NCBI GenBank assembly: GCA_014871385.1
Contig: CM026426.1
Location: 85,093,579 to 85,157,578, forward strand
Reading direction: 5' to 3'
Origin: Ceratodon purpureus
Taxonomy: Eukaryota > Streptophyta > Bryopsida > Pseudoditrichales > Ditrichaceae
DNA: 64,000 nt
The notes beneath the pieces were generated by a model. The model was not told the DNA's origin and did no database searches. It saw only the letters and a list, made by a program, of their open reading frames with translations. Made by a program: the position numbers and the translations under genes. Positions 1,385 to 23,029 of this stretch are shown piece by piece; within the stretch, counting starts at the first letter, position 1; each line of letters starts with the position of its first letter.

Positions 1385-1409
1385 AACACCATATTCATTA
1401 AAATGGGAC
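1385..1409 (+). repeat. Left terminal inverted repeat of element 1
   Basis: Starts AACACCATATTC and matches the reverse complement of 23005-23029 at 24 of 25 positions. A small hairpin (GGGACTTTTGGAAGTCCC) overlaps its inner edge at about 1405-1422. Preceded by AGTG at 1381-1384. Confidence 0.72.
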
Positions 1410-2049
1410 TTTTGGAAGTCCCAAATTAATATAGTGCTTAAAATAGACCTAAAATTGTATCAACTATAATGGGACTTTCATTATATTGGGACCAAAAATC
1501 CATACAGTGTTCTTTTAATCAACCATTTTTTACACATTGCATCATACAGTAGGAGTTGCAATATAAATTATTGTTGCTTATTGCTTCATAATAGGACATT
1601 TTAAGCAATTTAAGCAATTTAAGCATGTCAAATATCATACATGTCACTGTAAAGTGTGAGAGGTTCCAGGGTTAGCTCAGAGTCAACTAATTCCTCATAA
1701 TGACTGTTGCTAGAACAATTCCAACAAATGTAGAATGGCAATTTGCACGATGTTCTCATGAATGGGAAATGACTCTGTTATAATAAAATTAGAGAATATA
1801 AAGTCTTCCACGACAACACAACATATTTGAACTGCATGTGAGCAGTATACTGTCTGGAATTTATAATTAATATTAAACTTCACAACCTTGAAGCTTAAAA
1901 ATGATGTACAAATTAGACAGTTTCTGCCCTCATATCACAGCAGTTTGTCTAAAAATCATAGTGCACATAATATAATCCAATAACGTTTACAACATACAAA
2001 TAGTAACGACTTATCCTCCTAATATGACAAACTTCATTATACAAAGAAG

Positions 2050-2612
2050 TTGTCCTACGATTCAGCTCATATCAAGCTTAAATAAAGATACTTAAACTTC
2101 ATAGCACCGTAGTTCTTAGCTCACATCTAGCTAAATGAAGTAAACTTTAACTCATAGCACAATAGTATTTAGCTCACATCAAGCTAAATGAATTATACTT
2201 TAACTACCTAAACTGCAGTATTTAGCTCACATCAAGCTAAATGAATTGTACTTAAACTTCAGAGCACCGTAGTATTTAGCTCACATCAAGCTAAATGATT
2301 TATACTTTACCTTCAGTGCACTGCAGTATTTAGCTCACATCAAGCTAAATGAATTATACTTTAACTACCTAAAACTGCAGTATTTAGCTCACATCAAGCT
2401 AAATGAATTGTACTTAAACTTCAGAGCACCGAGTATTTAGCTCACATCAAGTTAAATGAATTATACTTTACTTCAGACTGCAGTATTTAGCTCACATCAA
2501 GCTAAATGAATTACTTAACTTCAGAGCACCGTAGTATTTAGCTCACATCAAGCTAAATGATTATACTTACTTCAGAGCAGTATTTAGCTCACATCGAGCT
2601 AAATGAATTATA
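2050..2612. repeat. Degenerate palindrome array (P1 variant), about 11 copies
   Basis: Tandem units of about 50-55 bp, each with TTTAGCTCACATCAAGCTAAA or a close relative, joined by AT-rich linkers ending in phrases such as ACTTCAGAGCACCG. Only the outer TTTAGCT/AGCTAAA arms remain inverted; the centre CACATCA differs from the usual CACNGTG. The array lies just downstream of the 3' end of the minus-strand transposase-like gene. Confidence 0.85.
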
Positions 2613-2622
2613 CTTCAAGGGT

Positions 2623-5493
2623 CTAGAACCTCACCAAACTATTTGAGATAACATTTCTTTGAAGTACAGGAATACGAACTTTTGGATTTAGATTCCCAGG
2701 TTTAATTTTTGATTTCCAACTAGTCATAAGTGAATCGGTATCAATCCACTCAGGGGTGTGATCCTCATCTGCTTCCCATAGGAAGGATCTTCCAGAGTTC
2801 CATCCGACATAACACTCTACGACATCTACCTTGGTAGACACTGGTTTCCAGTACTGGACTTTAATAGCATTGGGATGATTAATTGAGTCTTCAAAAGGAT
2901 TCGACATTGCTCTAGCTACCCAGAAGGGTCGTGAATCATCATCAGCAGGGCGTACAATAAGAAAATATCCCTCAAAAACTCACGAGCCACCCGAAATGAT
3001 GCGTTTGGTCTATCACGGTGTTGCCCGATGAAGGGCTCATCTATACCGAAAGCGTCACGCACGGTGCCGTCATCAAGGTACTCATCTTCAGCTGACGGAG
3101 CAAACCGAGATAGCGGCCAGAACCCATCCCTCAACGTAGAAGGCGATATAATATCCTCTGTAAGTGCCTGATGCACCCCCTTCCAATACTGTGAAATCCC
3201 TTCATTTCTTCTCCGAAACTCGCCTGACAAGTCTTCATTGGCCATGGTATCCCAATGATTGATAAAACCTCCGATTCCCCTAACGATCTCGTCCTTGTTC
3301 TTCATGCACTGCGCTGGTAATGCATTTGGACTCCCTAATGGCAAGCTTGGCCTTCCATCAGCAAGCTCACTCCACAACTTAATGCCACCATTCTCCTTTG
3401 GAAGCCAGTCACTATCGGTGCAAACAATCTTATACTGCATCATCGGCCATCCATTGGCATGTTTATAGAATTTGAATTGTTGTGCATTGGTATGTCCTTC
3501 CAAAGCCTCATCTCCTGAAGCAATATGACCTTCAATAAATCCTTTGAAATCTGGCACTTCTTCAATAAAGTGAGGGATAACAGGCTCCGTTTCGGCATCC
3601 ATAAACGATTTCATGAGCAAAGGTATCGTAGGGTAGTCATTTTTCCTAAGCTTCATACTCCAACGCCCAAACAGAGCATCAATATCATCATGCGTATGTC
3701 CAACAAGCATGAAGTTCACATAAACCTCTCGAAAGATACCTCGAGCCACAAGAAGAGAAAAAAAACACAACATATATCTGTTTTTATTATCAGAGCAGGC
3801 ATTGTCTAGCTGGACATTTAGAATTGGAGGAAGAGGCTTTGCTGGGACAACTGTTCTTGGAATCGGAGGAAGGGATGACCTGCAAATGTCGGCTCCATTC
3901 AAAACGGCCTCAAAGAGAGGTGCAATGCGATCACCAGAAAACAACTCTCCTGAACATGCCATTGGTGTAGACTCAAGGTCACGTAAGAGCTTAGCAAGAC
4001 TCCCTACGGTGTGATTTGAGTCACTAGGATATATATCCAAACCATAGTGAGCATATCGTATATCACCATGTCCGTGAGCAATCATTCCAGTCACTTGCAA
4101 CGGTAACTTAAAATAGGAATCAGTGGCCTTGTTCTTGAGAGTACGCAGGGGACGCAGTTTTGGAGTGATCCATTTTATCATGAATCACAGTGACAACATT
4201 GTCAGGCTCTGTGATAGAGTTGTATCGATTCGCGTAGTACAACTCTCTGTGCGCTCGTTGCGCAGCGAGGTGTTCCTGGAGTTTCATTCCCCATAAATCC
4301 GCAGCTCTTGAACCTTTCGTACTGGCTAATTTCAACGATTTTAGTTTATCACATGTACCGCAACGTGCAAAATTATCTCCTGGTCTCTTCACTGAAAACT
4401 CTGGGAAGGATCGCCGCCTGATATTGCTGATCCCTGAGAGGGAAACCTTCCGCAGCCCCAGTTGACCGTTCACTATATTCACTTGGGGCAAAGAGTCTTT
4501 CCATTTCCATGATGGTGGAAGGGCCATTGACACTACCTTCTCTCCATTCTCCAAGGTTCTTGATCTATGGGGCATCTGATCTGCGACGCTCTCAAGCAAA
4601 CAACCCAAGGTTGCTTTTGCTTGAACGGTGTAAGTACGAGGCTTTTTAGTCCCCAGATTTCCATGATGCTCTGCTCTTACACCTTCATCAGCAAGGCTTT
4701 GGTGCCGGAAAAAGCTAGTGCGCGATACTCCAAGTATCTTGTACCAAGCAACTTGACATACATCAATACCTTCAAGTGTAACGACGCGATTCCCAGCGAC
4801 GTCAGTGTGCATTTGCCTATGAACATCAAGTTGAGTGTGCTTCTTGAAGTACACAGTGCCATCTCTCCAGAACTGATTTCGTAGGGCTTCAATCTTTAGT
4901 CGTGGATAAAACTGAACACAGTTCAACCTACATACATCTTTCGCTGGATACAGAAGCGATAGCCTCAGGAGATAACTTCATCTCTGCCTTCGGAAGGTGA
5001 TTTGGAACCCTCTGGACTCTGGAACTATCATAAGGTCGTACTCCTACACGCTTCCTCCCCCGCATTGAAGAAACAGCAGCATTGTAGATAGCCACTTGAT
5101 CGTGGTCGTAGAGAGATGCACCATTTACGAATACATTCCGGATATGCCAAGCACGTAATGAAAACATCCATCCGATGGTACATCATCTTCACACAAGGAC
5201 TCTGCAATCTGAACAGCTACTTGATCATCTCCAAGCGGAGCTCCATCACTTCCGATGACAAGGTCTGAGTCGATGCTGTGGCAAATTCCTTTGGCAACAA
5301 TAGAGCCATACTCGTTCACTAGCGTAACAGCTTTGTGATCCATGACGACCGAGGCAATCCTTCGCAAGTAACGACATCGTCCGGTAAGGTTGGAAACTGT
5401 GGTGCCAGAAAACTCGTCAGCGCCGGAGAATGACTCCATTCGAAAATGAGATACCAGGTACGCTCTTCGAAACCTGGAAAGAATTAATATCAC
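2623..5493 (-). pseudogene. Transposase-like gene of element 1 (VGHTHDDID / DUF7869-like), frameshifted
   Basis: Reading on the minus strand, the segments in order are: an N-terminal part (about 5441-5160, from the ATG at 5437-5439, MESFSGADEF); a Cys-containing linker (KDVCRLNC, near 4930); a zinc-like CGTCDKLK pair (near 4350); IHDKMDHSKTASP; LQVTGMIAHGHGD; then the core LDNACSDNKNR and FMLVGHTHDDIDALFGRWS (about 3640-3790); and a C-terminal part with FLIVRP and FWVARA (about 2910-2960). The LDN...NK and VGHTHxDxD core is known from a eukaryotic transposon-associated family (DUF7869-like) with an RNase-H-like look. Function as a transposase is inferred. Frame changes near 5160, 4950, 4147 and 2960 break it. 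The second and fourth segments match the homologue at 29.2-32.8 kb, so the breaks are frameshifts and probably not introns. Probably inactive. Confidence 0.75.
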
Positions 5494-5676
5494 GAAGGGG
5501 TTAGAGGCAGTAAATAAGTCTCAGGAGCTTACAAACTTAATATATACTTCTCGCTTTGGTTAAACTTAATATATTGATTACTACAGAGTCTACAACTTCC
5601 ATATATTGTGTTACTAAAAATCACAGTAAAGAATGCTAGCATACAGTATCATTCGCGTACATTTGAACTTATATAA
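5494..5676. other. Probable intron upstream of the transposase-like ORF
   Basis: On the minus strand a polypyrimidine tract ending TTTCCAG sits just before the first long open frame (about 5473). The gene therefore probably has 5' exons, perhaps noncoding, in 5.5-7.3 kb. Minus-strand GTGAGT donor-like words occur near 6895 and 7083. Confidence 0.4.
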
Positions 5677-6665
5677 TTTAGCTCACTGTGAGCTAAATTC
5701 TGTACTTCACATGGAGGTTTAAAAATACAATAATAGTCGACTGCTCATGTATGTAGCTTATTCACCCATTACTAAAACTTAATGAACAATCTTCAATCCA
5801 GGTATCATGTTCCCCGTATGTTAGATTACCATTATCCCGTATTGACTAAAGTTGTTGAGAGCTTACTGTTGTTGAATTGAAAGATAACAGGAATAGGCGA
5901 ACGATTACTTGGCTCACAATAAGCTAGTCTCAAATTAGCTCACTATGAACTAAATTCATTCAGCTCACTATGAGCTAAGTTTAATTAAAATCACTACGAC
6001 CAGATGACGTCTGACTACACGTTTAAAAAACACATTCAATCTCATATTCAGCAGTTTCTGCTATTAACATATACTTCTTCCTCCAACCTAATTTATTTTG
6101 GGTTGGCGTGCAATACAATTTATTTGGGAACTCATCTTAATTGATTATGAGCAGTATCTTCTTTGTATATACTGAACCGTAGTGTATCACAGGGTACTTT
6201 ACTTTTGTTTTACCATAAACACAGCATATTATAAACCAATTTGCATGTCTTCGTTAACTGCCTCAGTCATATCCTAATACTCTTAGTCTACTCCAAATTA
6301 GCTCACAGTGAGCTAAATCAAAGTTAACTCACTGTGAGGTAAATGAAATTGAGCTATCTCTGAGGTATGCCAGATTTGGCTCAAAGTGAGCTAAATACAA
6401 CATAGCTCACAGTGAGCTAAGTTCAATTTAGCTCACAGTGAGCTAAGTCTAATTTAGCTCAAAGTGAGTTCAGCCGAATTTAGCTCACGGTGAGCTAAGT
6501 CGAATTTAGCTCACAGTGAGCTAAGTCCAATTTAGCTCACAGTGAGCTAAGTCCAATTTAGCTCACAGTGAGCTAAGTCCAATTTAGCTCACAGTGAGCT
6601 AAGTCCAATTTAGCTCACAGTGAGCTAAGTCCAATTTAGCTCATTGTGAGCTAATTCCAATTTAG
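5677..6665. repeat. Palindrome P1 array upstream of the transposase-like gene
   Basis: Scattered copies from 5677 become a tight tandem array at about 6365-6665, with a period near 33 bp: TTAGCTCACAGTGAGCTAA plus linker GTCCAATT. At least ten near-identical copies occur here. The position is 5' of the minus-strand gene, in its promoter, leader or a leader intron. Confidence 0.9.
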
Positions 6666-9300
6666 CCCACTGTAAACGAACTCCAATTCAGCGGAAACAC
6701 CACTTTCGTATACATAGATTCAGCGCCCAGTGTGTCAAACTTAGATCGCAAGAAGCAATACATATATATGTCAAATACAATAAGAAGAATTCAGCATTGA
6801 AAGTTATATGTAAGTAAAACTCGTAATGAATTTCCCGAAAATTTAGGAAATTAATCAACGAATTCGTACATTAATTATGAGAGCAATTGGGTACACTCAC
6901 TAATCCCTTGAATCTGATTTATAATCCAGATCATTACAACCTACGGTATACGCTTACATACCAAACAGAAACCAAAATAGGTCCAACACAATTCCATACA
7001 ATGATTACAGAACCTAAGGTATTCACAAAGGCAATCACCGAATGAATTTGAAACGGTACCAACAAGTCTGTATGCATTGACACTCACCAATAAGGAGTCC
7101 CTCGATGCTCTGTAGAAACGACTGTCAATTCATATCAGCACAGCAAACCCAATACAGTCGCAACCAGGGACTTCGATCTCAGTCTACCAGGGGCCTGAAA
7201 GCTGAGAACACAAACAGAATGCTGCTACAAAATCTGCAATCTCACAGTCAGGAAGAGAATTCTAGAAGACCATAACACCGCGTCACTCGGATTCCAAGTA
7301 GAGTCTCAGGAAAGAAAGGCGAGAGTATGAGGACCCACGAAGTGATGACCCTGGACCCCAAGCATTCTCAAACGGCTCTCTGAAAAAAGCGGGAACCGTC
7401 GACATTCCCATTTAGGCGGGAAAGAAGAATTCCTTTTATCAAATTGTCACTGTTGGCCTATTACGGAGATGCAGCACACATCCACTTTGTCCTTTCCCAT
7501 TGTTATCCACACCATTTTAGGCGGCGGTACCTTTGCACAACTTTATTCCACGCTATGGAGTAGGCAGAACCTCAACATGGATGCTTTCAACGACTAAGCC
7601 TAATTAAAGAGAGAGGCATTGTTGTGCTGCGAGAGACTTTCGTGATGTGAGGTTCTTATTAGTAGATCCGGCCTAATTTTGCATTCATGACATAATGACC
7701 TTCTTGGTTTATGCTCTTTAAAGTGGGGAACTTGTGAGGTCAAGATACTATGACAAATAAGTCACTACGGATCTGTTTAGATAGCAAATTAGTTATGGGG
7801 AAACGATGGATCTGTTGTATGTTGGCGGGAAATAATATGATGAACCTGGGAAACGTTTCTGTGGATCTCTATTAGTTGTATTATAAACCGTCGATGCCTA
7901 AAACATCACATACTCGAACTATAGAGGTCTAAATGATTAACTTGTATAAAAATAAAAGATCATGTTGCAATTACTGCTAGATAATAAAATAATACTGTGG
8001 GAAAATCCAGGGGAAAAAATACGATACTCTTTGATATAGGATTTCCAAAAGATTCAAAAATAATTGAACTATTAATAAAAGGGAACATGAATGGAATTAA
8101 ATAATTTCAAGAAATTAACCACGTTTAAAATTAAAGTCATTTTATTTTTTACAAAAAAACAAAATTTTAAAATATTTCTTCCTAAGAAGTTAGAGATCCA
8201 TTACGGTTTATTCGATACTTTACATTGCAAGCAAATATAACAAAGTTAGTACCGTTCCACTTCTACCAAACTTAAATGTTTATAACCACAATTTCAATTC
8301 ATCGTTATTATGGGAAATAATTATAATATAACCATGATTAATGTGTTAGTTTACATAATATGTGATACGTGAATAATCATTTAACACACTACATGTGGCA
8401 AACCTCATGAATATGAACAGACAGAGCAATAGGGTAGACGAGGTCAGTACACACATATTCCATATAAATCTACAGAAAACAATAGATTACAGTTGTATTG
8501 ATGAAATGCATCAACGCCCCAAAACCCTGAACCCCGACCTTAGACCCTAAACCCTAGTTACCCTATACCCTAGGTCCTATATCTTGTACCCTATACCTGT
8601 TACGCTCGACATTTACAGATTATAGTGCATGGTAAAAAAAAGTCTTCAACTTTTTTGGGTGAAGATATTCTTTTGTTAATTGACTTTGTTTCATTCAATT
8701 TTCATGTTACAGAGATTAGTTCATACATAAATTTACAATACTGTATACTACGCGTACCTTCTGAATATATAAAGTATATATAATCTATAAATTATAACAT
8801 ATTGCATGGAAGTGCCGTATTTTTTCGATAGATATGCGAAATGTTCTCGTTTGGACACGTACCATGACACTGCTCTTGCTCTTGATAGTAAGTCTAATTT
8901 TTTCTAATATTGATGGAATTTATAACTACTTATACAAGTTCAAATTCCTAGTACTTCTTCATTTCCTATTTTAATTGTGAAATTTCTTGTATAATTTTTA
9001 TGAATATTATTATATTGTATATGAAAGGACAGGGCATAAGAGAAATGTGCAATTCATTACGATAAGAATTAGAAATAAACATCATTACATTTTCATCTAA
9101 GACGTTGATCCGAATTTGTTTTCCAAAAATTTTGCTTGCGAAGGTTACACACAGTGCCTAAAGTCATTTATTCCATTTTTACAACAGGGAATCCCATAGT
9201 TAGATAATTATTTCCATGTTAGTGAAACCTTTGCTCAATAAATCATGAACATAATCCTTAAAATATAATATCTATGCTTATTTCATAAGTTCCTCGTTTA
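6666..9300. other. Central spacer of element 1, no gene recognised
   Basis: AT-rich and without a supportable coding region. It probably includes 5' leader and promoter of the transposase-like gene (about 6.7-7.5 kb) and a short telomere-like tract at 8513-8590. Confidence 0.5.
8513..8590 (-). repeat. Degenerate telomere-like repeat (CCCTAAA strand)
   Basis: Runs CCCAAAACCCTGAACC, then ACCCTAAACCCTAG and TACCCTATACCCTAGG. These are degenerate copies of the plant telomere heptamer in the C-rich orientation on the plus strand. It lies between the two divergent genes of element 1. Confidence 0.65.
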
Positions 9301-9329
9301 ATCCTACAAAAATTATATTTTCCCGTTAA

Positions 9330-10775
9330 TATTCGTTGTTTAATTTTTGCAATTCTTTTATTGAATTTTTGGTCATCACTTGTGTCGAATTATTTATCAT
9401 TATTCTATTCGTCCCTCACCCTATTTTATTAAGTATTTATTCTTATAATCTCTTCCTTTTTAATTTTATTTTTTATTTTATTAGTCATCTATTGTATTCC
9501 ATTATCCTAAATTTATTAATCCGTTGGTCATCGATTATAGTTTCCTCTCTTTCAGTTGTTCTTACATTAGTCATCCAACCTTACATTCCATTCCTCTCCC
9601 TCTCTATTTTATCAAATTTTTTTCGTCTACTATTCTTCCATTTATTTTATTTTTATTTTTTAAATTCACTTTAATTATTATATTGGGCATCTATTCTATC
9701 CTATTCTCTTTCTATTTTGCGATTGGGATCCTTTGTAGTATATCTCTTTATTTCTGTGGTCCACTACTCATCCTTCCCGACTCACAATTTTTCATCCTTC
9801 TCTACCTCTTTCTCACCGTTTCAGCCTTTTCTAATCTTGTTATCCTTCCATTGACCATTTTACAATTATCATTTTCGAAATATTTTATTGGTCTTCTATT
9901 CTATCCTCCTACATTTTTATTCTTCTATTGGTCATCCATCCTTTCTCTTAGTTTTCCATCCTTCTATTTCTTTTTCTCTTTATTTCATCCCTTTCTTTTT
10001 ATTCTTCAAATGATTTTTAAATTTTACTATTTTCTAGTCGTTTTATTGGTCTTCTATTCTTTATATTTTCCTTCTTGATTCTTTGAGTGGTCATCCACCG
10101 TTTCCATTATGTTTTCATCTTTATATTCCTCTCCTTAACTTGTTTTTTTTTATTTGATATTTTTATTTTACTCCTCTTCTTCTTCCATCGATTTTTTAAT
10201 AATTGTATTTTCTTAATGTTTTATTGGTCTTCTATTCTATGTTTTTTCCTTTTTTATCCTCTAAGTGGTCATCCATCCTCTCCCTCAGTTTTTCATCCTT
10301 CTATATTTTCTTAATATTTTATTGGTCTGCTATTCAATCCTTTTACCTATTGTATACCTTTATTGGTCATCCCTCCTTTCCGTTGGTTTTTCATCCTTCT
10401 ATTCGCCTCTCTATATATATATATATATTTTTTTTTTATTTTTTTTTTTTTGTTCTTCTATTCTTCTACCATTGATTTCCAAATAGTATTATTTTCTTAA
10501 TATTTTATTGGTCTTCTATTCTATCATTTGACCTTTTTTATTCCTTTATTGGTCATCCATCCTTTCCGTTGTTTTTTCATCCTTCTATTCCCCTCCCTAT
10601 CTATCTCAATTTTTTTAAATTTATTTGAATTCTTCTATTCTTCACCATTGATTTTCTAATATCAATATTTTCTTAATATTTTATTGGTCTCCTATTCTAT
10701 CCTTTTACCTTTTTTATCCCTTCATTGGTCATCCTTTCCGTTGGTTTTTCATCCTTCTATTCGCCTCTCTACATA

Positions 10776-10808
<33 letters not shown>

Positions 10809-11345
10809 GTTCTTATATTCTTCTACTATTGATTTCCAAATAGTATTATTTTCTTAATATTTTATTGGTCTTCTATTCTATCATTTTACCTTTTTTATTC
10901 CTTTATTGGTCATCCATCCCTTCCGTTGGTTTTTCATCCTTCTATTCCGCTCCCTATCCATCATTTTTTTTTTTTTTTTACTTCTTCAATTCTTCTACCA
11001 TTGATTTCAAAATAGTTTTATTTTCTTAATATTTTTTTTATGAAAAAGTCCTATTCTATCCTCTTACCTTTTTTATTCTTTTATTGGTCATCCATCCTTT
11101 CCGTTGGTTTTTCATCACTCTATTCCCCTCCCCATCTATCTCATTTTTTTTTAATTTCTTTTAATTCTTCTATTCTTCTACCATTGATCTTCTAATATTA
11201 ATATTTTCTTAATATTTTATTGGTCTCCTATTCTATCATTTCATCTTTTTTATTCCTTTATTGGTCATCCATCCTTTCCGTTGGTTTTTCATCCTTCTAT
11301 TCCTCTCCCTATCTATCTCCTCTTTTTCGCTTTTTATTCTTCTAC
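9330..11345 (+). repeat. Pyrimidine-rich satellite, unit about 175-187 bp
   Basis: The phrase TTGGTCATCCATCCTTTCC recurs near 10361, 10548, 10725, 10902, 11085 and 11260, with more diverged copies from about 9530. Each unit also carries TTTTATTGGTCTTCTATTC and a homopolymer T block (over 30 T near 10779-10807). The plus strand is almost free of G for 2 kb, which creates spurious hydrophobic open frames. No gene. Confidence 0.85.
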
Positions 11346-14300
11346 TCTTCTTCGATTGAATTTTAAATATTATTAGTTTTTATTTATTTAATTGCGTGAA
11401 TAACTAAAGTATTGCAAACCTTTTAGCTTAAAGTGTTGAAAAAAGTAGAATAACCGTAATTATAGCATTATATAGCCTTTTTTTGTTAGTAGAGTATACA
11501 AGTTCATATTTTAGTTAAAATTTCATTTTTATAAGAAAAGTACGTTCATTAACTGTCACAAAAATAATTCATTTAATGCATGCTATTTAAGAGGTTTCCA
11601 ATTAAATTGATTTTTTTAAAGTCATTGTAAATTTTAAAAATAAATATACTATATGGCACTTGTTCATATTTAAAAAAAAAAAAAATAAATAAAAAAAAAC
11701 GTATTATTATGGTGAGTAGTCACCTTATAACCGAGATGAGTCATTAATGAGGGCTCAGAAGAACTACGTCAATGGCACGTGGCATGCCCTCTATGGCTAG
11801 GGTTCCTGCCCGCAGCCGCCATACGTTTGCGGGGCTGCCCACGAAATCACCTCGTGAACAGCCCACGACATGCATCTCCCCAACTCCCGCGGGCTTCTTC
11901 CCTCGCCAGCTTCCTTTGTCGTCTCTCCCAATATCGAGACATGGCGTCCCTGGGTTGTGATCGCGATACGTAGCTGGTTCTCATTTAGGGTTTCTAGGTC
12001 ATACAGTCGATTAGCTGGTTTCTTTCCGACGTTGTTGTAGTTGTAGAACTCCAGTTTTGTTTTGTTACAAGTTAGTTGTTGGTGACAGTTGCAAGCGCCG
12101 TCGGCTCTTTACGTTTTCTAAACTTTAGATCACAGCAAATTTATTCCTCGAACCCTAGGTTTCATCTACTCTGATCGAAATTTGTGTGGACTTTCAACGT
12201 CCATCTTGTTCTCTTTCTATTTGTTAGTTCAAGACATCTCTGGAGACGAGGTGGACGCGCCGCTCCAGTCGACAAAACTGCCTGTTCTAGTGAGTTGGAT
12301 TCTGTTCTTGCAGTTTCGTTGTTCTCTAGAGACTGTGTGTCTTTGTGGGTGCTTTGTAGTTTGTGTGTAAGGTGAGAGTAACATCGTCGTTGGTTGCAAT
12401 TAGTGTTGTAGCTTGTATAATTACACTTCGATGTATGTTTGTTGTGTAACGTTTGGTATGCTGATACACTTGTTCAACATGTTTGTTACGCTTGTGCTTT
12501 TGTCTGACAATTGTTAGCTGTTTTTCAAGCTTTTGGTTCGTGTGACAATGTCGGTTTTGTGCATTATGCGTGATGGATAATTGTTCCGTGGAACTAAATG
12601 TCACTTTGTTATTTCAGTCTATATCCTCTGCAGGGTTTCCAGCCTCTCTTTTGACGTTGTCACCTTGAGAAATTCACGTTTTACAGACCTGTAAGTTGTT
12701 TCATAGATTCTTTCATCTCTTTTCATGTTTTTCAGTCTCGGTATCACATTATTTCGTTGTCGATTCTAGATAATTATTCTTTTCGGTGCCTTCTGTGTTT
12801 ACTGAACCCTGTTGTTGGTTGATGAAGTTGTTGCACTTCATTTCTCGACGTAATGCAGCTTGCAATCTTCAAGGAATCCAAGGCGTGTGTTACCGTGGAC
12901 CTATAGACGTCAGAGCAAGAGAAGAGCGGTACGCATTTTACTCGATGCAGACTTTGTCGTTAACCTTCATTTGAACTTGTATATGTATAGAATAAACTTT
13001 CTACAGTGATATAGGGTAGCCTTTTCTAATGCTTAAATTAGGGTGTTCAGAATGTTGAGTATTCTGTCGTTTGTGGATCATAAGTATATGCGCTAATTTC
13101 TAGGAACTTTGAAATGAATATGTATTTGTTATTTGTATGAATTCTCCTCCTCGGGTAACTGTATTGCTGAGGACAGTGACTGTTGTGAATGTAAATGATT
13201 TCATTCTGTTATGTTTCTACGAATCGATTTGAGTGTAATGTCATTATAAATTTGGACTTCACATATTTTTGTACTCTCTATACCTAACAATCAAACTGAA
13301 GGGATTTATCCGTGTGTTTTAAAAAAGTACACAACTTGTTTTTTTCTTCTATACAATTCTGTCCCACTACTACAGCATATGTTTACTACATACGGATTGC
13401 AGAATTTGTGTTCATAGAGTAACCTTTTCACAAGTTCTGCATTGTTTTACAATATTCTGTATTAGTTGTGGGTCCCGGGGACCTACATTCTTTACATAGA
13501 TATAAGAATTAGCTCAGTGGAGCAAAATTGTAGTGAAACTTAGAAGATTTAGCTCACAGTGAGCTAAATCGTAGTGTAACTTAGTGGATTTAGCTCACTG
13601 TGAGCTAAATTCAAGTGCAAGTTTGAAGATTTAGCTCACAGTGAGCTAAATAATACTGCAACTTAGTGGATTTAGCTCACTGTGAGCTAAATTCCAGTGC
13701 AACTTAACAGATTTAGCTCACAATGAGCTAAATCGTAGTGCAACTTAGTGGATTTAGCTCACTGTGAGCTAAATTCAAGTGCAACTTTGAAGATTTAGCT
13801 CACAGTGAGCTAAATATTAGTGCAACTTAGTGGATTTAGCTCACTGTGAGCTAAATTCTAGTGCAACTTAACAGATTTAGCTCACAGTGAGCTAAATCGT
13901 AGTGCAACTTAGTGGATTTAGCTCACTGTGAGCTAAATACTAGTGAACCTTAGAAGATTTCGCTCACAGTGAGCTAAACCGTAGTGTAACTTAGTGGATT
14001 TAGCTCACTGTGAGCTAAAACGTAGTGTTACTTTCCGTATAAAGATCAGTGTACGCTAACATATGAACCTAAACGATAAGTTTGGTCTCAATAAACTAAT
14101 TTATATGCCCTTATGACCTCTTTAGCTCACTGTGAGCTAAATCCAATGCACTTGTACGATAAACTTTGATGACTTTTGCCTAACTCAAGAAGTTATGTAC
14201 TAACAGTGGCTAATTTGATTTGAGATCTACTAAAAGCTAGAGAACTTTGAGAGTAGTGATGCATACTTATTTGTACGAATTTAGCTCACAGTGAGCTAAA

Positions 14301-14461
14301 TCTTGCACTCAACCTTCAATATTTCCATTGCAGTAAGCTAATTTCATTCATACTGGTCATATTGTCTGATTCTCCATGTTGATGATTGATGTGGATTGAT
14401 ACAAGAGATACATAATCGAGAAACTCGTTAAACTAATAAAGTTCTGTGTGAATGATTTCAG
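11346..14461 (+). promoter_or_regulatory. Promoter, leader and leader intron of the ParB-like/MTase gene
   Basis: From about 11.75 kb base composition rises to that of a transcribed region, with leader-like phrases (TAGGGTTTCTAGG, AACCCTAGGTTTC). GTAAGT at 12691 is a good donor. The coding ATG at 14462 follows directly on TGATTTCAG, so the start codon probably opens an exon behind a leader intron of up to 1.8 kb. The dense P1 array (13.5-14.3 kb) would lie in this intron. Further noncoding exons may exist near 12.8-12.95 kb. Confidence 0.5.
13505..14310. repeat. Palindrome P1 array with alternating centre base
   Basis: About 12 tandem copies at a 41-42-bp period between 13551 and 14025, plus outliers at about 14122 and 14279. 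Each is a perfect or near-perfect palindrome, TTAGCTCAC-N-GTGAGCTAA. The odd central base alternates A, T, A, T along the array, so copies alternate in orientation and the true repeat is about 82 bp. Linkers alternate too, one kind ending AACTTAGTGGA and the other such as AACTTAACAGA or TTTGAAGA. Confidence 0.92.
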
Positions 14462-17400
14462 ATGACGATGGTTACCCCAGTGCTAATGCCAGATGGATAC
14501 GACATGAGTCACCTCGATCCGTTCCTAGAGAGGTTCAAGAACCCCGATCCAGCGACTCCTTTCATTGAGCCGTCGTTGGAGAATTCCTACGGATCCCTGT
14601 GGCAGTTCAAGTCCGAAGTCGAAGGTTGGTCTCTGGCCGTGTCCCGGTACCACAAGTTTGTGAGAATCTTGCATAAAGAAAAGAACAGTCCTAGGTATCT
14701 GGACCTGTCTGTACATGAGCGTCTGAAGGTAATCGAGGAACATCATGGGAAGTACATTGTACTCGTGGTCGGTGCTGTAGACCGAGATTCCGAGTGTGAC
14801 TTGTCACACGTCCACTCGTTAGTAATCGAAGTCGGTGCTGAACATGCTCAATTTGACGGGGATCCGCTAATTAAAAGCATGATTGGAACATCATGCGAAG
14901 ACCTTATACTCGACCTAGAGAAGACCGCCTGGAAAAATGAAGATGGAACACAGTTGAGTGCCGTATCCTTTGGGCGTAGGCTGAATCGAGTTTTCTTGAC
15001 ACTTACTCACTATATAACTGACAAATCCGCCTCCAAGATCAGCACAGTTCCGTTACAGAGCTCAGCATTAGTTGCTGTGCGCGAGGACTCCGCTGCTCCA
15101 TCAAGAGGGAGCATTCAACACCCACGCGCATCACCAATTCCAGCACCTTCGCGTTCACGTGGAAGCAAGCGCCCGGCCAGTGATATTCAAGAAGCCTCCA
15201 CTTCAAGGAAGAAACGGAAGCAGACAGGGAAGGCAGGGAGCTCTGGATCTGGTCTGACGCAGACAGAAGAAACAAAAAAGACGAAGGCCAAGGCTAAGGA
15301 CAAGGACGTGCCGGATTATCAGAAATTCACAGAGATACAGAAGACATTCTGGGATGATTGTGAATCCGCATATGTCTTCGACATGAAGACCACGTTCCCA
15401 GTTAATGTGAAACAGTGCCACATTGCCAAGGATGAGTATATCGTCCGGGACCTAGAGAGAGAGATCGTTAAATCGGTTAAAGAAGAGCTTGTAAGGATGG
15501 GAGATATTAACCAGAGACAAAAGGTCTGTCTGATGCCAGTGACAGACAAACTAGAACTCCTGCCAGAGAAGCCGAAGTCTTGGGGAGAGATTAAAGATGG
15601 GAAATTTATGATTATCAATGGTCAACATAGTATAGTAGCTTCGCAGGAGTTACAGATATCAGGTTGCGGGGAGAAGAGGAAGAAAGAGCTCGAGTACTGG
15701 GACGCATACATTGTGTGGAGCAAAGAAGCTATGATTCTGGTCAGAATCTCGGAGTTCTATAATATGTGCAACCATCTTAATCACGCGCAACCGACATGGG
15801 GTACTAACATACTTAGTGCGCGGAATGTCTGGATAAGCCAAGATAAACCTACTAATATGAAGGACAACAACCGCCATAATGGGGCCCTATACAACACCAA
15901 GAAATATCAGGTAAGTGAACATGAAACTAACACGAGATTTCTTCAAGATGATTGTGTGGAGTGATTATTTTCAATTTGGTTCACTGTGTGCTAAATCAAC
16001 TGCTTGAGTTTACAATGAATACAGAGGTCGCGTTTAGCTCACAGTGAGCTAAATTTGTTATTTCTCTTATGAATTAATGAACTCTTACTTCTATGGTTTG
16101 CTGTATGGTTATCGGATTTCTGTAATTGTAGAACTGTCTGATTCAACAGATTGAATAGTTTCTGGGTGACTATGGTTGTAATCTGTTATGTTCAGGGGTT
16201 CCTATAGTGATACAGTTCCATGTAGTGATGGATTGTATAGCGAAATAGTTGGAGAAGTGCATTTTATTTCTACACATAAATAAATGAAACATGATATCTC
16301 TAATCTAAAAGTATGCATTTTGTAGAAATTCGTCGAGTTGCTTATCAAGCGATTCCAGAACATCGACCCCAGCAAGGACGGAAAGCAAGTGCAGGGGCCG
16401 GCTGATATTAAGAACGAGATGGTTATCATCACCGCTCCCGACGATCATTTTAATCTGTGGAAGGAGTTCATCACGAAGCACAGCACGGGAGAGTTGATTG
16501 ATCCGGAGACTTGCGAGAGGTTCAACCAGAAGAAGGGCTTCAAAGGCGGAAAGTCGTTTCAGCTCCAACGCAGCTTCTTCCGTGGTATGGGCTTCATGAC
16601 CGAGGAGGAGACGAGGTCATTGGTAACCCACTTACTGATGCTGACGAAGAATTGGCAGTATAAATACCCCAAGGTATCCGTACACAAAACTCGTGGCACG
16701 GTGTTGCCACATCACTACTCATCTGGCGACTGGATGGCCAAGAAGAAGCGAAAGCGGATATGCATCCAAGAACTCCATGACATTATGCCCTCTCTTGGCC
16801 TTTGCAACAAGGACATGACCATTAACCGAGAGAAGTGGCACGAGTGGAAGGATGAACACGGTATCTCCAGCGCGACGTTGAATGTCCTTCTAGACCGACC
16901 AGATAAGGGATTTTATGGTTTTCGTGCTGAGAAGAAGGGGATGTTTAAGAGGTCACGTGATTTGACAGATAAATGGCCCAATGTTTTTCCGTTCTTCAAG
17001 AAGTTCCTGGAGGTGAAAGGTAATTTCGTTGCCCCGAAAGGAAGGATTCGTACGCGGTTATTCAATGCTGTTAAAATGGAGTTCGGGCAGCAGTGGCGCT
17101 ATGAGAGTGAACCGAGACTTGGTTTGGCATTACTGGATTTGCGAGATACCCCGGGCCATTCCACCAAGGATGACACTGTCGAGAACCCATTCTTTAAGCC
17201 GTTTATGAAGAAGCTTCTTCTTCTGAAATCTCCAGCTGTCTCCGATCCAGAAGTCTGGGTTTGGATTAGTGCTTCACAGCATAGAAATGCCCAAGCAATA
17301 GCATACGGAGAGAAGTACATGAAACAATACGAGGTGATTCCATCTAGATACATCCCTGCGAAGAACGAACGCCTTAATGATCATACTACTCGAAACTCAG

Positions 17401-20142
17401 GGAAGGATGAGTTGTACCTAGTATTTCTGGTGCGTGCAGGTAGGAGCGACGACAGAAAGAAGGTGAAGTCAGTCTATAAAGCTCCTAATACAAACTATTA
17501 CACAGTGTACGGATTGTACAAGGAAGCTCACCTACGACTGAATGCTCGGGAGCTGCGGATGGAATTCTACATCGAACTGTTGAAGACATTTTGCTTACCT
17601 GGCGAGAACTTCTGGGGGGTGTTCAGTGGAACAAAATGCATGTTAGCTGCTCGGGTAAGTAGTATCTACTTTATTCTTCTTATGTCTAAATTTTGTCATA
17701 GTCAGTAGTGACTGTATTAGCTCATAGTGAGCTAAATTCAGGTCTGAGACAGCAAGCATAAATTTAGGTTACTCTCTAGTTTGAATGATATTCGGTTTTG
17801 TATAGTTACTGAATCTGTATATCCCATATACATTTGTCATTGTAGAGTCAGCATGAATTTTAGCTCATTGTGAGCTATATGTTTCATTATATTTTCAGTC
17901 TAATGAAGTATGTTAGTTCTGTCCAGATCTACGGTATGTTTTATTACGGGATTATTGATCACAACTTCGAAAACTGCTACAAGGATATGGCTAAGCTAGT
18001 GCCCCACCTCGATATGAATGACTTCATTCATGAGGATTCAATCTATGACTTACCGAAGGAGGACGAGCCAATGCCAGAGAGGCAGCAGTTTCTTGAGAGT
18101 GATGAATTTGAAAGGAACGTCACTGTAGAATCGGGTTCGGATGATGAGGCAGATGAGATAGTCGAAGAGGAAGAAGACGATACTCTGGAGGAGGAACCGA
18201 TTGAAGGGACTCTTGGGGCAGGATTTGACGAAGAGACTCTTGGGGCAGGATTTGACGAAGAGACTCTTGGAATCGAGACTTTGCCCACCACACCTCAGCC
18301 AGATACTCGGTCATCAAGTTTAGCTCACAGTGAGCTAAATTCCTCACCACTAAGCCGTCATTCTTCACCACGTGAGACTAGGTTTCGCCAACAGAACTCT
18401 ATACTAGGTCGGCGCCTCGTTCAGGAGTTCGGGTCAGAGCAGCAGGCTCAAATCAGAGTCGGTGGGTCAACTTCGAAAGATGTTGACATGGAAGAGGAGG
18501 AGAACGTGGAGGGGGGAGCGGATGAAGGAGTTCCCGACGATGTTGTAGAGGGCAATAGAGGCGGGGAGAGCAGTGTGAAGACCGTTACGGAGACTCCGTT
18601 GGTTTTGCTCAGCGACTCCGATGATGATGGCAGCGATGAAGACCCAAGTAATTCAGAGGCCAGGGTTGTAGCGAGGGCACCGGTGGTACATCCTGTTGTC
18701 GTCTCTACAGCAGTGGTCCATCCTGTAGTTGTCCGGCAGGAGTTGGTACCAGATGACGGGGAGGAAGTCTTCAATGCTGCGGGGAAGGCACCTCATCCGG
18801 CAGCACCGGTTTCGAAGAGGGACGTGGACTGGTTCGAGTATAACCAGGAGAAGAGAAAGAAGAAGGAGGAGAAGAGGGAAAGGGAAGCCGAGGCAACTCG
18901 GCTTATTGTTGAAGAGGCTCGTTTGGCCAAGGAGAGGGCAGAGAGTCTCCTCAAAATTCAGGAGGAGAAGGATCGGGAGAGGGACAGAGAGATGCGGGAG
19001 AGGGATAAAGAGATGCAGGAAATGCGTCTGATGTTGTTGCAGATGCGAGGTCAAATCATTGCTCCAATCCAGGAGACCGCCATCGTGAAGCCCACTGTGA
19101 TGCCCTGTAGTGATGCAGTTGAAAGTCCTAAAGGTAAAGACTAAATAGTAACAAATTTAATCTAGAAAACATGGATAGTATGGCATTATCGAGTATGAAA
19201 AACCTGGATGTATGGTTCTCTAAGTGTCTCACTGTATTTGTTATAGATTTGGTATGACTGTCGTTTCTGAACGCTACGAGATACGTAGTTGTTTACGTTT
19301 TTCATATTTTTGGAGATTTCCATTTATTCCAGTTGACAGTACTGGTTTCACCATCAAAGGCACAAAATATTACGCCTCTGATTACATTACTTTGATGTAC
19401 GATCCTGTTGCAATAGCTAGGAGGCAGTAGCTCAGATTTTGTCCCATTTTGAAGCAGTGTGTGGGATCTTCTAAGTTCTCACATTCGTACAAATCGACGA
19501 AATATTAGAACTAGGCACATTAGTTTTTAATGTCATTCAGAATGTTAGAAATCTGGATCAACTTATTTGAACTTCATAACTGATTGTAACAGTAAAGAAA
19601 TATCAACGTGCTCAAGGACTGAACACACTATGAATTGCATTTGGTGATCATCTAGGCCTGTATTAAATGATTTAGCTCACACTGAGCAAAATCGTAAAGA
19701 AGTAGCTGACGCTTGTATTTCTAATTATCCAGGTTGTGATGCTTTGGCCACTGCGGATACTACGGTGGAGAATGCCGTTGTGGTCGAAGAGGAGATTCCG
19801 GACGCAGTCATTACGAGCCCTTGCAAACCGATGACTCCAATGTCATCAGGGCCGAAAAATGACGATGATGACATTGGTAGTGGCGGTGATGGATTCTCCG
19901 TTAACCCAGTCACACCTGCAACGAGCCCCACGGTGGACCTGGAGGGAGGAGGTAACCTGTCGGCCAACCCTACACCAAAAGAGACTTCAGGGCCCTCAGA
20001 CTGTTTGGTGGAACCCGAAGCACTTGTCGATCCGGTTGATGAAGAGTTGGTGGACTACGAGGAGTCTCCAGGGGCAAGTCTCTCTCTCCCAGACGCTCAG
20101 AGGATTCACCTGGAGAGTCAGCAAAGTGATGATTGTCCCGAG
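14462..20142 (+). CDS. ParB-like motif plus permuted DNA-methyltransferase-like protein, element 1
   Basis: Exons 14462-15910, 16326-17654, 17927-19133 and 19733-20142 join in frame with GT-AG borders; the first two introns are phase 0 and the third phase 1. Residues 1-170 form an unrecognised N-terminal domain and about 220-280 are basic (SRKKRKQ). A ParB/DGQHR-like box, IINGQHSIVAS, lies at about 384-394, followed by YWDAYIVWSKE. Exon 2 has LALLDLRDTPG (about 751-761), placed where a DPPY motif IV is expected. Motif-I-like VFSGTKCMLAAR (about 915-926) continues across the splice into YGMFYYGIID. The order IV then I is that of beta-class N4/N6 methyltransferases. ParB-methyltransferase fusions are known in phages and plasmids. 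The tail is acidic with a duplicated TLGAGFDEE, then a charged coiled coil. The catalytic motif IV is degenerate, so activity is uncertain. No stop or frameshift was seen. Confidence 0.62.
16033..16053. repeat. P1 palindrome in intron 1
   Basis: A perfect TTAGCTCACAGTGAGCTAA within the intron 15911-16325. Confidence 0.9.
17716..17878. repeat. Two P1 palindromes in intron 2
   Basis: TTAGCTCATAGTGAGCTAA at about 17717 and TTAGCTCATTGTGAGCTAT at 17858-17878, both inside the intron 17655-17926. Confidence 0.88.
18319..18339. repeat. P1 palindrome inside coding exon 3
   Basis: A perfect P1 lies in frame within the acidic tail and encodes LAHSELN. It is the one clear copy seen inside a coding exon. 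Confidence 0.92.
19671..19691. repeat. P1 palindrome (one arm mutated) in intron 3
   Basis: TTTAGCTCACACTGAGCAAAA inside the intron 19134-19732. Confidence 0.8.
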
Positions 20143-20326
20143 GTATGCACCTCTGAGATATATATCAACTTAAAGCTCTGAGTATTACTTCCCCACTGTC
20201 TTATTCTAAAGTAGAGGTCTTAGCCGAATGATAAGTGACTGTATTTACATATATGTAAGTGTGACTATACACATTTTATAAAATTTTAATATTCATTATT
20301 TTAAGTTAATCTATCGTGGCATTTTA

Positions 20327-20347: not shown

Positions 20348-20425
20348 TGAAGATGTTAATTTCATTGATTAGTAGAAGAATTTGAATATCTGCTGAATTT
20401 GACTTGTTTAAATTGGTGTGCTTCA

Positions 20426-21399
20426 ATGGATGGTCAGCTGAAAGCAACTGACCATGTTCACCGCCCGGTTGCTGTTAAATCTGTGGTTAGCGACGTGGAA
20501 TTGCGTTCCAATTGTCAAAATCAAAAGTTCAAATTCTCCTCGCCTTTTCGTCCATCTGCATTTCAACAGGTAACGCCATTTGTTTTGTTTTATTGATTTT
20601 CCAGGCTGAAGCTTCTACACAGTTTCCACGAGGTCTTAAGGGTGTAACATCCAAGAAGTGGCTGAACATTGTTTTGGACATTAATGGTATACTATGTAAA
20701 TGCGTCGAGAGGCGTCTTGGGTTGAAGGACTCAGTGACAAACCACATAAACCTTTCTGTTCATAGTCCGAAGTTCGCCACTATTGTTGGACCGAAGGCAG
20801 TGTATGTTCGGCCCCGATTCTCGGATTTCATAGCATTTGTGAACGATTTCGCAAATATTTTGGTCTGGAGTTCAATGAAGAATTCGACAGCGATGGATGT
20901 TGTCAAATATCTTTTCACTGGGCTGCCCATGCCTTCGGTTGTTCTTAGTCAGGAAGATTGCGAACGAATTCAAACTTCTCGCCGTACCTACTTGAAATAC
21001 CCTGACGGAGATAAGCCTATATTTTTGAAAACGTTCTCTTCAACCCTTTTTGGAGCGGGTAGTATCTACAACGTGAACAACACGATTCTAATTGATGATA
21101 GTCCGGAGAAAAGCATCTGTAATGAGACTGGCAATGCTGTTTTCCTAAAGTCCTGGATCGAAAAGGATGACAAAGATGACTACCTAATGTCAGTTTTGGC
21201 TCCATGGTTGTCCAATTTGGTCAAGGTGGTTGCTAATGGAAATCTTCGAAATTATGTTGAGTCAAACAGAATAGGAGTCCCCCCAATGTCCGACGATGAT
21301 CCACTATTCAACCATATTTTAGAGGGAATGGCCGTTTCTACAAGGAATGTGGGTACTGTTTATGATGTTTGCGGGGTTAGCAATCCTCGGCAAAATTGA
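20426..21399 (+). CDS. FCP1/NIF-like HAD domain protein, element 1
   Basis: The main exon, 20605-21399, carries the NIF/FCP1 (HAD) pattern. Motif I is NIVLDINGIL (Asp at 20677), followed by YVRPRFSDFIAFVNDF, ILVWSSM, and the late acidic motif NTILIDDSPEKS, then NAVFLKSW and VLAPWLSNL. Canonical motif I is DxDxT/V. Here the second Asp is Asn, so phosphatase activity may be lost or altered. The exon start is phase 0 and would join in frame to the end of exon 4 (20142), making one fusion protein with the ParB-like/MTase part. Alternatively a separate start at ATG 20426 reads MDGQLKATDH to a GT at 20570, with a 35-bp intron, unusually short for a plant. Either model is open. The HAD fold call is fairly safe; substrate and role are unknown. 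Confidence 0.62.
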
Positions 21400-21418
21400 A
21401 CAATGATTGAGAAGACGG

Positions 21419-21437
21419 TGGCTCACAGTGAGCTAAA
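21419..21437. repeat. P1 palindrome after the HAD exon
   Basis: GGCTCACAGTGAGCTAAAC, 20 bp after the TGA at 21397-21399. If 21582-22379 is a further exon this copy is also intronic. Confidence 0.85.
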
Positions 21438-21581
21438 CTATGGACAAACTTGTAAATGTTTTTGTAAATGTTTATGTAAATGTTATTGTTTTTCTCTACC
21501 GGTTGAAAACGGATTTTGTAAGGTTTGCAATTTGTCGTAATACTAATTTGCCTGTCTTACCGATGTGTAATTGTTCTTCAG

Positions 21582-22379
21582 GTTCAGCCACTGCACTCTA
21601 TTTCTGGTGGGTCTGATTGCAGGTTCGGTGATTCTTTCGGCCTAACGTCGAATGTTTCAAGTGGGCAGTTCGTTGGTACGTGCTCTATATCTGAAGGGGA
21701 GGCTCTCGGAGTTCAACAGTATTCGAAGCCCTTCTTGTTGTTTTCTGCCACAGACGCTGCTTCTGCAGCTATAGATTTTTCAAGGGGAGATGTGGAGCAA
21801 GACGTAGTAAACAGTCCTCCTAGCAGTGTAGGTGGACGAATCACAGTGTCGTCACCTTCCCCTTTGAAATCGGTTGGGAGGTTTACACCTAGGCGGGAAC
21901 GTTCTACTTCTCCCGCACCTCAGAAGTCTATGATCCCTCAAAGACAACTGTACGAGGTTGTTGCACCTGAAATATTACCTCTTAGGGTAGAAATTGCCAA
22001 TAAGCCTTTTGTTCACAGTGAGCAAATTCTGGAGACTAGATCGGTAGGTAGAAATATTTCTAGAACCATGCCTAACCGTGAGCCAAATATAGGAGAACGT
22101 GATGTTTCACGCTTGGGAATACCAACAGTGCCAACTGTTGCTCCCAAACCCCCGCGATTATCTAGATTCCAGCCTACCCGTTCTTGTTCTTCTACAGGTC
22201 CAGATCTAGCAACACTTAAGCGACAAATGAGAGATTCCTTAGCTCATCCTATTCTTCGGCTACAAACAAAGACTTCAGTTTTCGCTGAATCATACCCTAC
22301 GACCGTTTCGCGGAGAGGCGACATAATGAAGGCCTTGGAGGACCTGAAAGCAAAGGAAGGGAAGAAATCTATAGTTTAG
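21582..22379 (+). CDS. Disordered Ser/Pro-rich C-terminal exon, element 1
   Basis: An open frame with no ATG at its 5' end begins right after TTCTTCAG (acceptor at 21580-21581) and runs to TAG at 22377. It encodes a Ser/Pro/Arg-rich, probably disordered protein (PSPLKSVGRFTPRR; PRLSRFQPTRSC) with a short charged end (LEDLKAKEGKK). It may be the last exon of the ParB-like/MTase-HAD gene or a separate reading frame. A phase-0 donor upstream is not obvious: GGG|GTTAGC at 21375 fits the phase but is a weak site. No family recognised. Confidence 0.45.
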   Translation, partial: VQPLHSISGGSDCRFGDSFGLTSNVSSGQFVGTCSISEGEALGVQQYSKPFLLFSATDAASAAIDFSRGDVEQDVVNSPPSSVGGRITVSSPSPLKSVGRFTPRRERSTSPAPQKSMIPQRQLYEVVAPEILPLRVEIANKPFVHSEQILETRSVGRNISRTMPNREPNIGERDVSRLGIPTVPTVAPKPPRLSRFQPTRSCSSTGPDLATLKRQMRDSLAHPILRLQTKTSVFAESYPTTVSRRGDIMKALEDLKAKEGKKSIV

Positions 22380-22790
22380 ATTTCTAGTACCGAACTCAAT
22401 TATACCATGTCATTGCTCATTTATTATTAATATTTCCAATAAAAATACTGATACTGTACTGTATCGTTTCGATATATTTATTTTTTTCATAGTAATGGTT
22501 GGAATGATTGCCTTTTACTTAACCTGACTGTCACTGGGTTTGTCTACCTCATTTACTATGGTGGAAATTGTCTCTTCAGTCCTTTTAGCTCACAATGAGC
22601 TCAATATGAATATGGAATTTTGATCTACTGTATCCATGATCCTATTTTTCATTACTTGTGTAAGTTGGTGGAAAGTGAGACACTAACAAACGCCACTTAG
22701 TCTTTTCTCAAATTTTTTGAAAACTTCACAATAATTTTGCTTCAAAAAAAAGAAAAAAAGAAAAAAATTCACAATAATGATTACACCAAC
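22380..22790. other. 3' flank of element 1 gene cluster
   Basis: No gene. AATAAA-like words near 22439 could serve polyadenylation. A P1 copy (TTTAGCTCACAATGAGCTC) lies at about 22584-22604. Confidence 0.5.
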
Positions 22791-22794
22791 TCAA

Positions 22795-22960
22795 TTAGTT
22801 CAATGCTAGCAATATTAACTTAGTTCAATGCTAGCAATATTAACTTAGTTCAATGCTAGCAATATCAACTTAGTTCAATGCTAGCAATATCAACTTAGCT
22901 CAATGTTAGCAATTATTTAGCTCATTGTTGACTAGGAAAGAGATTTAGCTCATAGTAAGG
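22795..22960 (+). repeat. 25-bp direct repeat, five copies, next to the right end of element 1
   Basis: TTAGTTCAATGCTAGCAATA plus TTAAC or TCAAC is repeated five times, then grades into two degenerate P1 half-sites (about 22917 and 22942). It is subterminal, within 240 bp of the right TIR. Confidence 0.85.
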
Positions 22961-23004
22961 GACATCCTAGAAACTAGGGATCTTAGTCCCACAAATGCGT
23001 TAAT

Positions 23005-23029
23005 GTCCCATTTTAATGAATATGATGTT
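23005..23029 (-). repeat. Right terminal inverted repeat of element 1
   Basis: Contains GTCCCATTTTAATGAATATG, the exact reverse complement of 1390-1409, and ends GATGTT. It is followed directly by AGTG (23030-23033), the same 4 bp that precedes the left terminus. Confidence 0.72.

Follow-up and report, generated by a model that had tools for sequence, protein, structure and literature searches.

A 64,000-nucleotide stretch of the genome of the moss Ceratodon purpureus (hereafter the window; contig CM026426.1, positions 85,093,579 to 85,157,578, on a 110.5-Mb sequence that we call C6) contains a 21.6-kb DNA transposon at window positions 1385..23029, inside which we found 53 copies of a 23-bp palindrome, ATTTAGCTCACAGTGAGCTAAAT, counted at up to six mismatches. 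An initial annotation had delimited this element, with a transposase-like gene, a multi-exon gene carrying ParB-like and methyltransferase-like motifs and an FCP1-like domain; the palindrome arrays were not reported there and are new here. These palindromes look like candidate docking sites for an element-encoded protein. The reading that we favour, at a probability of roughly 0.55, is that of a giant cut-and-paste transposon, probably of the Sola superfamily (Sola-1-like), whose opposite-strand accessory gene (gene 2) would bind the palindromes and mark the element as self—much like VANC21 in the Arabidopsis element VANDAL21. The positions of all features are collected in Table 1.

The element is a terminal inverted repeat (TIR) DNA transposon of the cut-and-paste type: it has TIRs, homology between its copies ends at the termini, and it is bounded by a target site duplication (TSD) of constant length. 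As first claimed and now borne out by comparison of the ends, the two repeats match at 24 of 25 positions, with AGTG on both sides; such a pair is expected about 0.0009 times by chance in 64 kb and was present in none of five shuffles. Leaving the palindrome arrays aside, the window has two further inverted pairs of this kind, near 23450/25058 and near 38481/53178, which probably belong to other elements.

The 362.5-Mb genome assembly was searched with the first 216 bp (left end) and the last 110 bp (right end) of the element, yielding at least 40 scored matches among 66 candidates for the left end and at least 40 among 48 for the right. We examined 39 left-end regions, which together account for every left-end match, and the 35 best-ranked of the 40 right ends, and compared 38 left ends after one fragmented copy had been set aside. 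The terminal sequence is exactly AACACC in 36 of these 38, AACACT in one and AAGGTC in another. Homology breaks off at the termini instead of running through them—the left flanks are unrelated, with fewer than 30 of 50 ungapped matches in every pair, except for three left ends, that of the window copy included, which share an identical flank (50/50 bases) and probably reflect a segmental duplication. Pairing left and right ends by hand, according to strand and proximity, gave 26 copies with spans of 12.4-117 kb, many of them near 22 kb, and nine of the examined right ends had no left partner. An exact 4-bp duplication was present in 23 of the 26 pairs as against 10 of 650 mismatched pairings (Fisher p ~7e-32). 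Other copies with matching ends and duplications do exist in the C. purpureus genome, and they fully support the proposed limits at 1385 and 23029. Two of them, B and C, align with the window copy (A) end to end in a single alignment, at 98.9% and 97.7% identity; the element is real and recently active.

Sequence C6, which makes up 30% of the assembly, harbors 21 of the 26 pairs (binomial p 1.7e-7, with the segmental duplication included in the count) and 30 of the 40 left-end matches. According to the available part of one report, the U and V chromosomes of C. purpureus each exceed 100 Mb and amount to ~30% of a 360-Mb genome (PMC8000587). C6 is probably a moss sex chromosome, and perhaps one on which the element accumulates. 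Copies I and J are autosomal, and their stretches include 2,500 and 10,000 N, respectively.

The 53 palindromes of the window are confined to the element, the remaining 42 kb being free of them, and block shuffling produced no palindrome in 19 of 20 runs and one in the remaining run for the window copy, and none in any of 20 runs for copy E. Besides three arrays, single palindromes occur in the introns of gene 2 and downstream of genes; all five exact 23-mers of the window fall in the array upstream of gene 2. Coding exons hold two of the 53 copies, with 22 expected. A palindrome at 18318-18340 is in frame within exon 3 of gene 2, where it encodes part of SLAHSELN. Across 15 hand-picked single sites, information content is 0.9-2.0 bits at 22 of the 23 core positions and at most 0.49 at every flank position, values that include no small-sample correction and come from sites found by the motif itself. 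Genome-wide, the pattern TTTAGCTCACNGTGAGCTAAA has 446 exact sites and its reversed control none, and the 50 of these 446 that were listed all fall within element copies—with, for C2 and C4, placement by the left end only. The autosomal lineages I and J contain 47 and 44 sites with the same core at array spacings of ~25, 42-84 and 124 bp; T is the most frequent base at the center in both, and I has C at the final position.

In global alignments covering 29 noncoding sites, the palindrome core of the window copy is 84.7% identical to that of E, 85.0% to that of F and 81.2% to that of I, with the other noncoding DNA at 70.3%, 70.9% and 56.0% (the last over the 5,919 of 9,667 positions that could be aligned). 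A comparison of 14 hand-matched sites, which is subject to stronger selection bias, gave 89.8% versus 69.5%. Compensatory paired changes numbered 16 among 132 distinct sites, where 500 shuffles averaged 17.05. This lack of any excess argues against a role of the palindromes as RNA hairpins, and a double-stranded DNA site for a symmetric protein fits better.

Gene 2 confirms the predicted multi-exon gene, with splice sites assigned by eye, and is under strong purifying selection. Between the window copy and copies D-F, the synonymous divergence of exons 1 and 2 is ~1.0-1.2 and the ratio of nonsynonymous to synonymous substitution rates (dN/dS) is 0.058-0.069 for exon 1 and 0.039 for exon 2 (exon 2 of E, with its broken frame, being excluded). 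The autosomal pair I-J gives 0.046 and 0.023, and the highest values for these exons, 0.073 and 0.087, come from the close pair A-C, which has few changes. Exon 3 is looser, at 0.18 (0.27 for A-C); exons 1-3 of A are saturated at synonymous sites against I and J, and no ratio is given for those comparisons. Searches of a 5.8-billion-protein collection (E <= 1e-3) returned 38 matches to exon 1 and 30 to exon 2; the window sequence has a 99% identical match in the first set and a 100% identical one in the second. The exon end is reached in 21 of 32 other aligned rows for exon 1 and in 22 of 29 for exon 2, and the next residue is valine (GTN) in 21/21 and 21/22 of these, as expected if these rows came from unspliced eukaryotic genes whose introns sit at the same places. 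Viral contigs yielded no relatives by a protein query, by the exon-2 alignment or by the palindrome pattern.

The description of this gene as ParB-like with permuted N4/N6-methyltransferase-like motifs holds in part: the motifs and their order are visible, but profile and family support is at or near noise. Exon 1 has no convincing family match in Pfam, PHROG or NCBIfam and exon 2 none in Pfam or PHROG, no methyltransferase family appears among Pfam matches up to E 1, and comparison with solved structures gave nothing for exon 2 and a single weak hit for exon 1, which lies away from the NGQHS box (E 0.48). Profile comparisons were made with a small set of 8 phage ParB domains and 5 phage methyltransferases (40 column shuffles) and with a large set of 75 phage/bacterial ParB-methyltransferases (5 from phages plus 70 of 80 loci, 10 having been dropped by a motif or length filter; 60 column shuffles). 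Against ParB, exon 1 scored 19.0 in the small set and 16.6 in the large one, reached by 4/40 and 10/60 shuffles, i.e., at noise level; against the methyltransferases, exon 2 scored 24.7 (maximum 22.4 in 40 shuffles) and 24.4 (reached by 1/60), i.e., near noise. The best alignments fall on the expected boxes—NGQHS/GHGR in exon 1 and the FxGxG region in exon 2—and phage and bacterial ParB-methyltransferase fusions have the same order, the FxGxG-like region coming after a GHGR/NGQHS-like box.

Motif IV of N4/N6 DNA methyltransferases has the form (D/N/S)PP(Y/F/W). The exon-2 alignment, whose 30 rows include partial ones, nowhere contains this tetrapeptide, whereas DPPY is present in 5/5 phage ParB-methyltransferase rows. 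Exon 2 reads DLRDTPG and GVFSGTK at the presumptive positions of DPPY and FxGxG; the conserved column block of the alignment holds DLRDTP in 15/30 rows and variants in the others, and the intact lineages I and J have DFRDTPG in this conserved region. Because the DPPY-type tetrapeptide is missing and the motifs are altered, the gene 2 product may not be an active methyltransferase.

The transposase-like gene recognized by its VGHTHDDID segment is present as annotated, yet its frame is broken in the window copy, a point on which the earlier description needs correction. Copies D, E, F and G likewise have a broken frame, and the transposase had no match in copy H. In copies B and C the gene forms one stop-to-stop frame of 966 amino acids (939 from the ATG), and it is open over 939 codons in the autosomal copies I and J. 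With a broken gene in the window copy and intact ones elsewhere, the window copy is probably moved in trans. DUF7869 is the sole Pfam match in the full-length protein; a search of the available papers did not find this name, and comparison with solved structures gave no match. Candidate acidic residues for a DDD catalytic triad, as in the Sola superfamily, were picked by eye. The dN/dS values are 0.048 (B vs I), 0.046 (B vs J), 0.072 (B-D, with stops in D) and 0.079 (I-J).

The predicted FCP1/NIF-like domain is supported by a Pfam match (E 9.4e-14; 51.8 bits against a gathering score of 21.8) but is best read as a separate gene (gene 3), which corrects the earlier gene model. We set this HAD part apart from gene 2 because the conserved ATG at 20426 directly follows an in-frame stop in I and J, though not in A and E; the same arrangement disfavors a single gene for ParB, methyltransferase and HAD modules. 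Its putative intron (20570-20604), at 35 bp unusually short for a plant, does not vary in length among copies A, E, I and J. FCP1-type phosphatases have a DxD catalytic motif, and at this position gene 3 reads DIN (DxN) in all four copies compared (A, E, I and J). With a dN/dS of 0.18-0.38, the HAD gene is more loosely constrained than exons 1-2 of gene 2. The further open frame downstream (a fourth gene or a 3' exon of gene 3) has 67% amino acid identity over 150 residues in autosomal copy J.

Comparison of copies A and E reveals a mosaic. Over the first 4 kb (the transposase end) the two are 0.88-0.94 identical; the value falls to 0.68-0.74 at 4-13 kb, is 0.77-0.85 at 13-18 kb (gene 2), rises to 0.93-0.96 at 18-21 kb (the HAD end) and is 0.84 over the remainder; over window positions 5.8-19.3 kb, the center is 68-85% identical to E and the ends 84-96%. 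Between I and J, synonymous divergence is ~0.5 in exons 1-2 of gene 2 and ~0.14-0.15 in the transposase and HAD genes. Gene 2 with its arrays looks like an exchanged or older cassette, and the central drop in identity is possibly the result of cassette exchange between subfamilies.

The suggestion that this gene set amounts to an undescribed system did not survive comparison with the literature. The available part of one report describes an Ectocarpus transposon, Sola1-1_Ec32, of 21.5 kb with an opposite-strand 1104-amino-acid ParB-like/DNA methyltransferase protein, refers to comparable cases in green and red algae, and raises the possibility that proteins of this kind bind to and modify the transposon that carries them (PMC12477816). 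The moss element resembles Sola1-1_Ec32 in its giant size (21.6 versus 21.5 kb), in the accessory gene opposite the transposase and in the ParB-like plus N4/N6 methyltransferase reading; the layout is so closely matched that the moss element is not of an undescribed kind. The likeness is one of layout; the host is a moss instead of a brown alga, and the moss family has no DPPY-type motif. The palindrome arrays and the FCP1-like gene are features of the moss element of which the accessible text on Sola1-1_Ec32 makes no mention (PMC12477816). No land-plant case, palindrome arrays or FCP1-like partner turned up in the literature, as far as the accessible texts go, with no search aimed at palindromes or FCP1. 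Sola elements are described with 4-bp duplications, in some cases at more than 15 kb, and also from the moss Physcomitrella; the moss element agrees with them in duplication length, in a TIR length within the reported range and in its large size (PMC10741241, PMC9033089, available parts). Membership in the Sola superfamily (Sola-1-like) is therefore probable, judged by duplication length, size and layout.

VANDAL21 is a Mutator-type element, the Mutator superfamily including the VANDAL elements. The closest tested functional precedent, going by the accessible part of the report, is VANC21/VANDAL21 of Arabidopsis, in which motifs occur as tandem repeats in introns, intergenic DNA and terminal noncoding regions and are bound by an element-encoded anti-silencing protein, as would also be the case in the moss element (PMC5735166). 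Arrays of an element-specific short motif, multiplied mainly outside coding DNA, are common to both, but the 9-bp motifs of VANDAL21 lie in one orientation where the moss motif is a 23-bp palindrome, and the two have no recognized protein family in common. Mutator membership itself was rejected on the 4-bp duplication, against 7-12 bp in that superfamily (PMC10741241, available part). Fungal KDZ elements, with TET/JBP dioxygenase genes and 7-8 bp duplications, resemble the moss element as DNA transposons with an accessory gene of DNA-modification type and differ in that theirs is a dioxygenase; the duplication length excludes KDZ membership, and AACACC termini with a 4-bp TSD exclude CACTA/EnSpm, which has CAC..GTG termini and a 3-bp TSD (PMC12730594, available part).

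On the reading that we favour, the DUF7869 transposase would act on the 25-bp TIRs by a staggered cut that leaves the 4-bp duplications—the ends and duplications being observed and the cutting protein proposed. The gene 2 protein would recognize the palindrome as a dimer, as its symmetry suggests, and bind the arrays upstream of the transposase gene and of its own gene, together with the sites in introns and downstream of genes. By analogy with VANC/VANDAL, this binding would mark the element as self and keep it expressed against host silencing, and the protein may also help to mobilize the element; the FCP1-like protein would be a further accessory. The window copy, without a full transposase of its own, could be moved in trans by intact copies. 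A more elaborate version, which we consider rather doubtful, makes gene 2 a non-catalytic descendant of a ParB-methyltransferase stationed at the palindromes, so that a VANC-like shield against host silencing would have been built from unrelated, prokaryote-type parts with a parS-like array, and palindromes and gene 2 would be exchanged between lineages as one cassette.

Several points weigh against this interpretation. Three of the 26 end pairs have no 4-bp duplication, although these include the two very long spans of 83 and 117 kb, which may be wrong pairings. Gene 2 is not intact in every copy, exon 2 being frame-broken in E. The conservation figures come from alignments in which part of the DNA has decayed, at sites chosen by motif match, a choice that somewhat favors the core. 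With ParB and methyltransferase profile support at or near noise, even the DNA-binding nature of gene 2 is an inference, and the palindrome-binding protein that we assign to this gene could also be the transposase. Indeed, the palindromes might be the transposase's own sites, for complex assembly or repression of its promoter, with gene 2 doing something else: one array lies directly upstream of the transposase start and another beyond its 3' end, and single palindromes occur near both element ends. Yet all five exact 23-mers sit mid-element, upstream of gene 2, and single sites are found in the gene 2 introns with no concentration at the termini, so that this explanation, while possible, seems to us unlikely.

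Less likely still is that gene 2 encodes an active N6-adenine or N4-cytosine DNA methyltransferase modifying the element at or near the palindromes. The domain prediction published for the Ectocarpus Sola-1 protein points that way (PMC12477816, available part), as do the strong constraint on exon 2 and its best local profile match to the FxGxG region, whose score was reached by 0/40 and 1/60 shuffles; set against these are the DPPY-type tetrapeptide in 0/30 exon-2 rows (some partial), DLRDTP or a variant in the conserved column, and an FxGxG-like motif that is altered too. That the palindromes are functionless, spread by slippage and exchange between copies, appears highly improbable: most of them do stand in tandem arrays expandable by slippage, but isolated sites have no common flanks, exons are depleted of palindromes, and the core is kept across lineages with different array spacing.

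Elsewhere in the window, the region beside the right end of the element (23332-25200) looks like another small TIR element, with repeats carrying GTAGGATCCTAC palindromes on either side of 1.5 kb of sequence and, among these, a 25/25 inverted pair (23451 / 25057). The 24/25 inverted repeat pair at 38481 and 53178, 14.7 kb apart, possibly represents the ends of another element, and a CACTA-type transposon with Transposase_21 (E 2.7e-55) and DUF4218 (E 4.9e-27) matches occupies 41830-45396 on the - strand. An interstitial array of AGGGTTT repeats, which we take to be of the plant-telomere type, lies at 27302-27394, and a pure CCCTCT array of 94 copies at 60503-61066, with long spurious open frames on both strands. 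Rfam at gathering scores and ARAGORN found nothing in the window.

Table 1. Features of the C. purpureus transposon in window coordinates
Feature	Position	Strand	Remarks
Left TSD	1381..1384		AGTG, 4 bp
Left TIR	1385..1409	+	exact element terminus
Palindrome array 1	2045..2627		spacing ~54 bp, asymmetric variant ATTTAGCTCACATCAAGCTAAAT; beyond transposase 3' end
Transposase gene	2623..5439	-	DUF7869 (PF25273, E 5.1e-46); frame broken in window copy
Palindrome array 2	5676..6744		upstream of transposase start; 26-bp spacing ~6266-6744, single sites from 5676
Tandem repeats	9653..11394		~177 bp; between the two main genes
Palindrome array 3	13438..14301		upstream of gene 2; 41-bp spacing, single sites at 14120 and 14279
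Gene 2, exon 1	14462..15910	+	NGQHS box, read as ParB-like
Gene 2, exon 2	16326..17654	+	methyltransferase-like region
Gene 2, exon 3	17927..19133	+	acidic, coiled-looking; a palindrome in frame at 18318
Gene 2, probable last exon	19733..20181	+	stop at 20181; alternative donor after 20142
Gene 3	20426..21399	+	FCP1/NIF-like HAD protein (PF03031); exons 20426-20569 and 20605-21399
Further open frame	21522..22379	+	either part of gene 3 (3' exon) or a fourth gene
Subterminal repeats	22770..22919		25 bp; by right end
Right TIR	23005..23029	-	exact element terminus
Right TSD	23030..23033		AGTG, 4 bp

For the algal ParB-like/methyltransferase accessories, binding to and modification of their own element have been proposed without a named binding site in the accessible part of the report (PMC12477816). 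The moss element supplies a concrete candidate site—a 23-bp palindrome present in tens of copies per full-length element, conserved between lineages and, among the places listed, found solely in this element family. The arrangement also appears to extend to a land plant, with near-identical copies, some of them with an intact transposase frame, on a probable moss sex chromosome, and the candidate binding site makes the proposed function testable.

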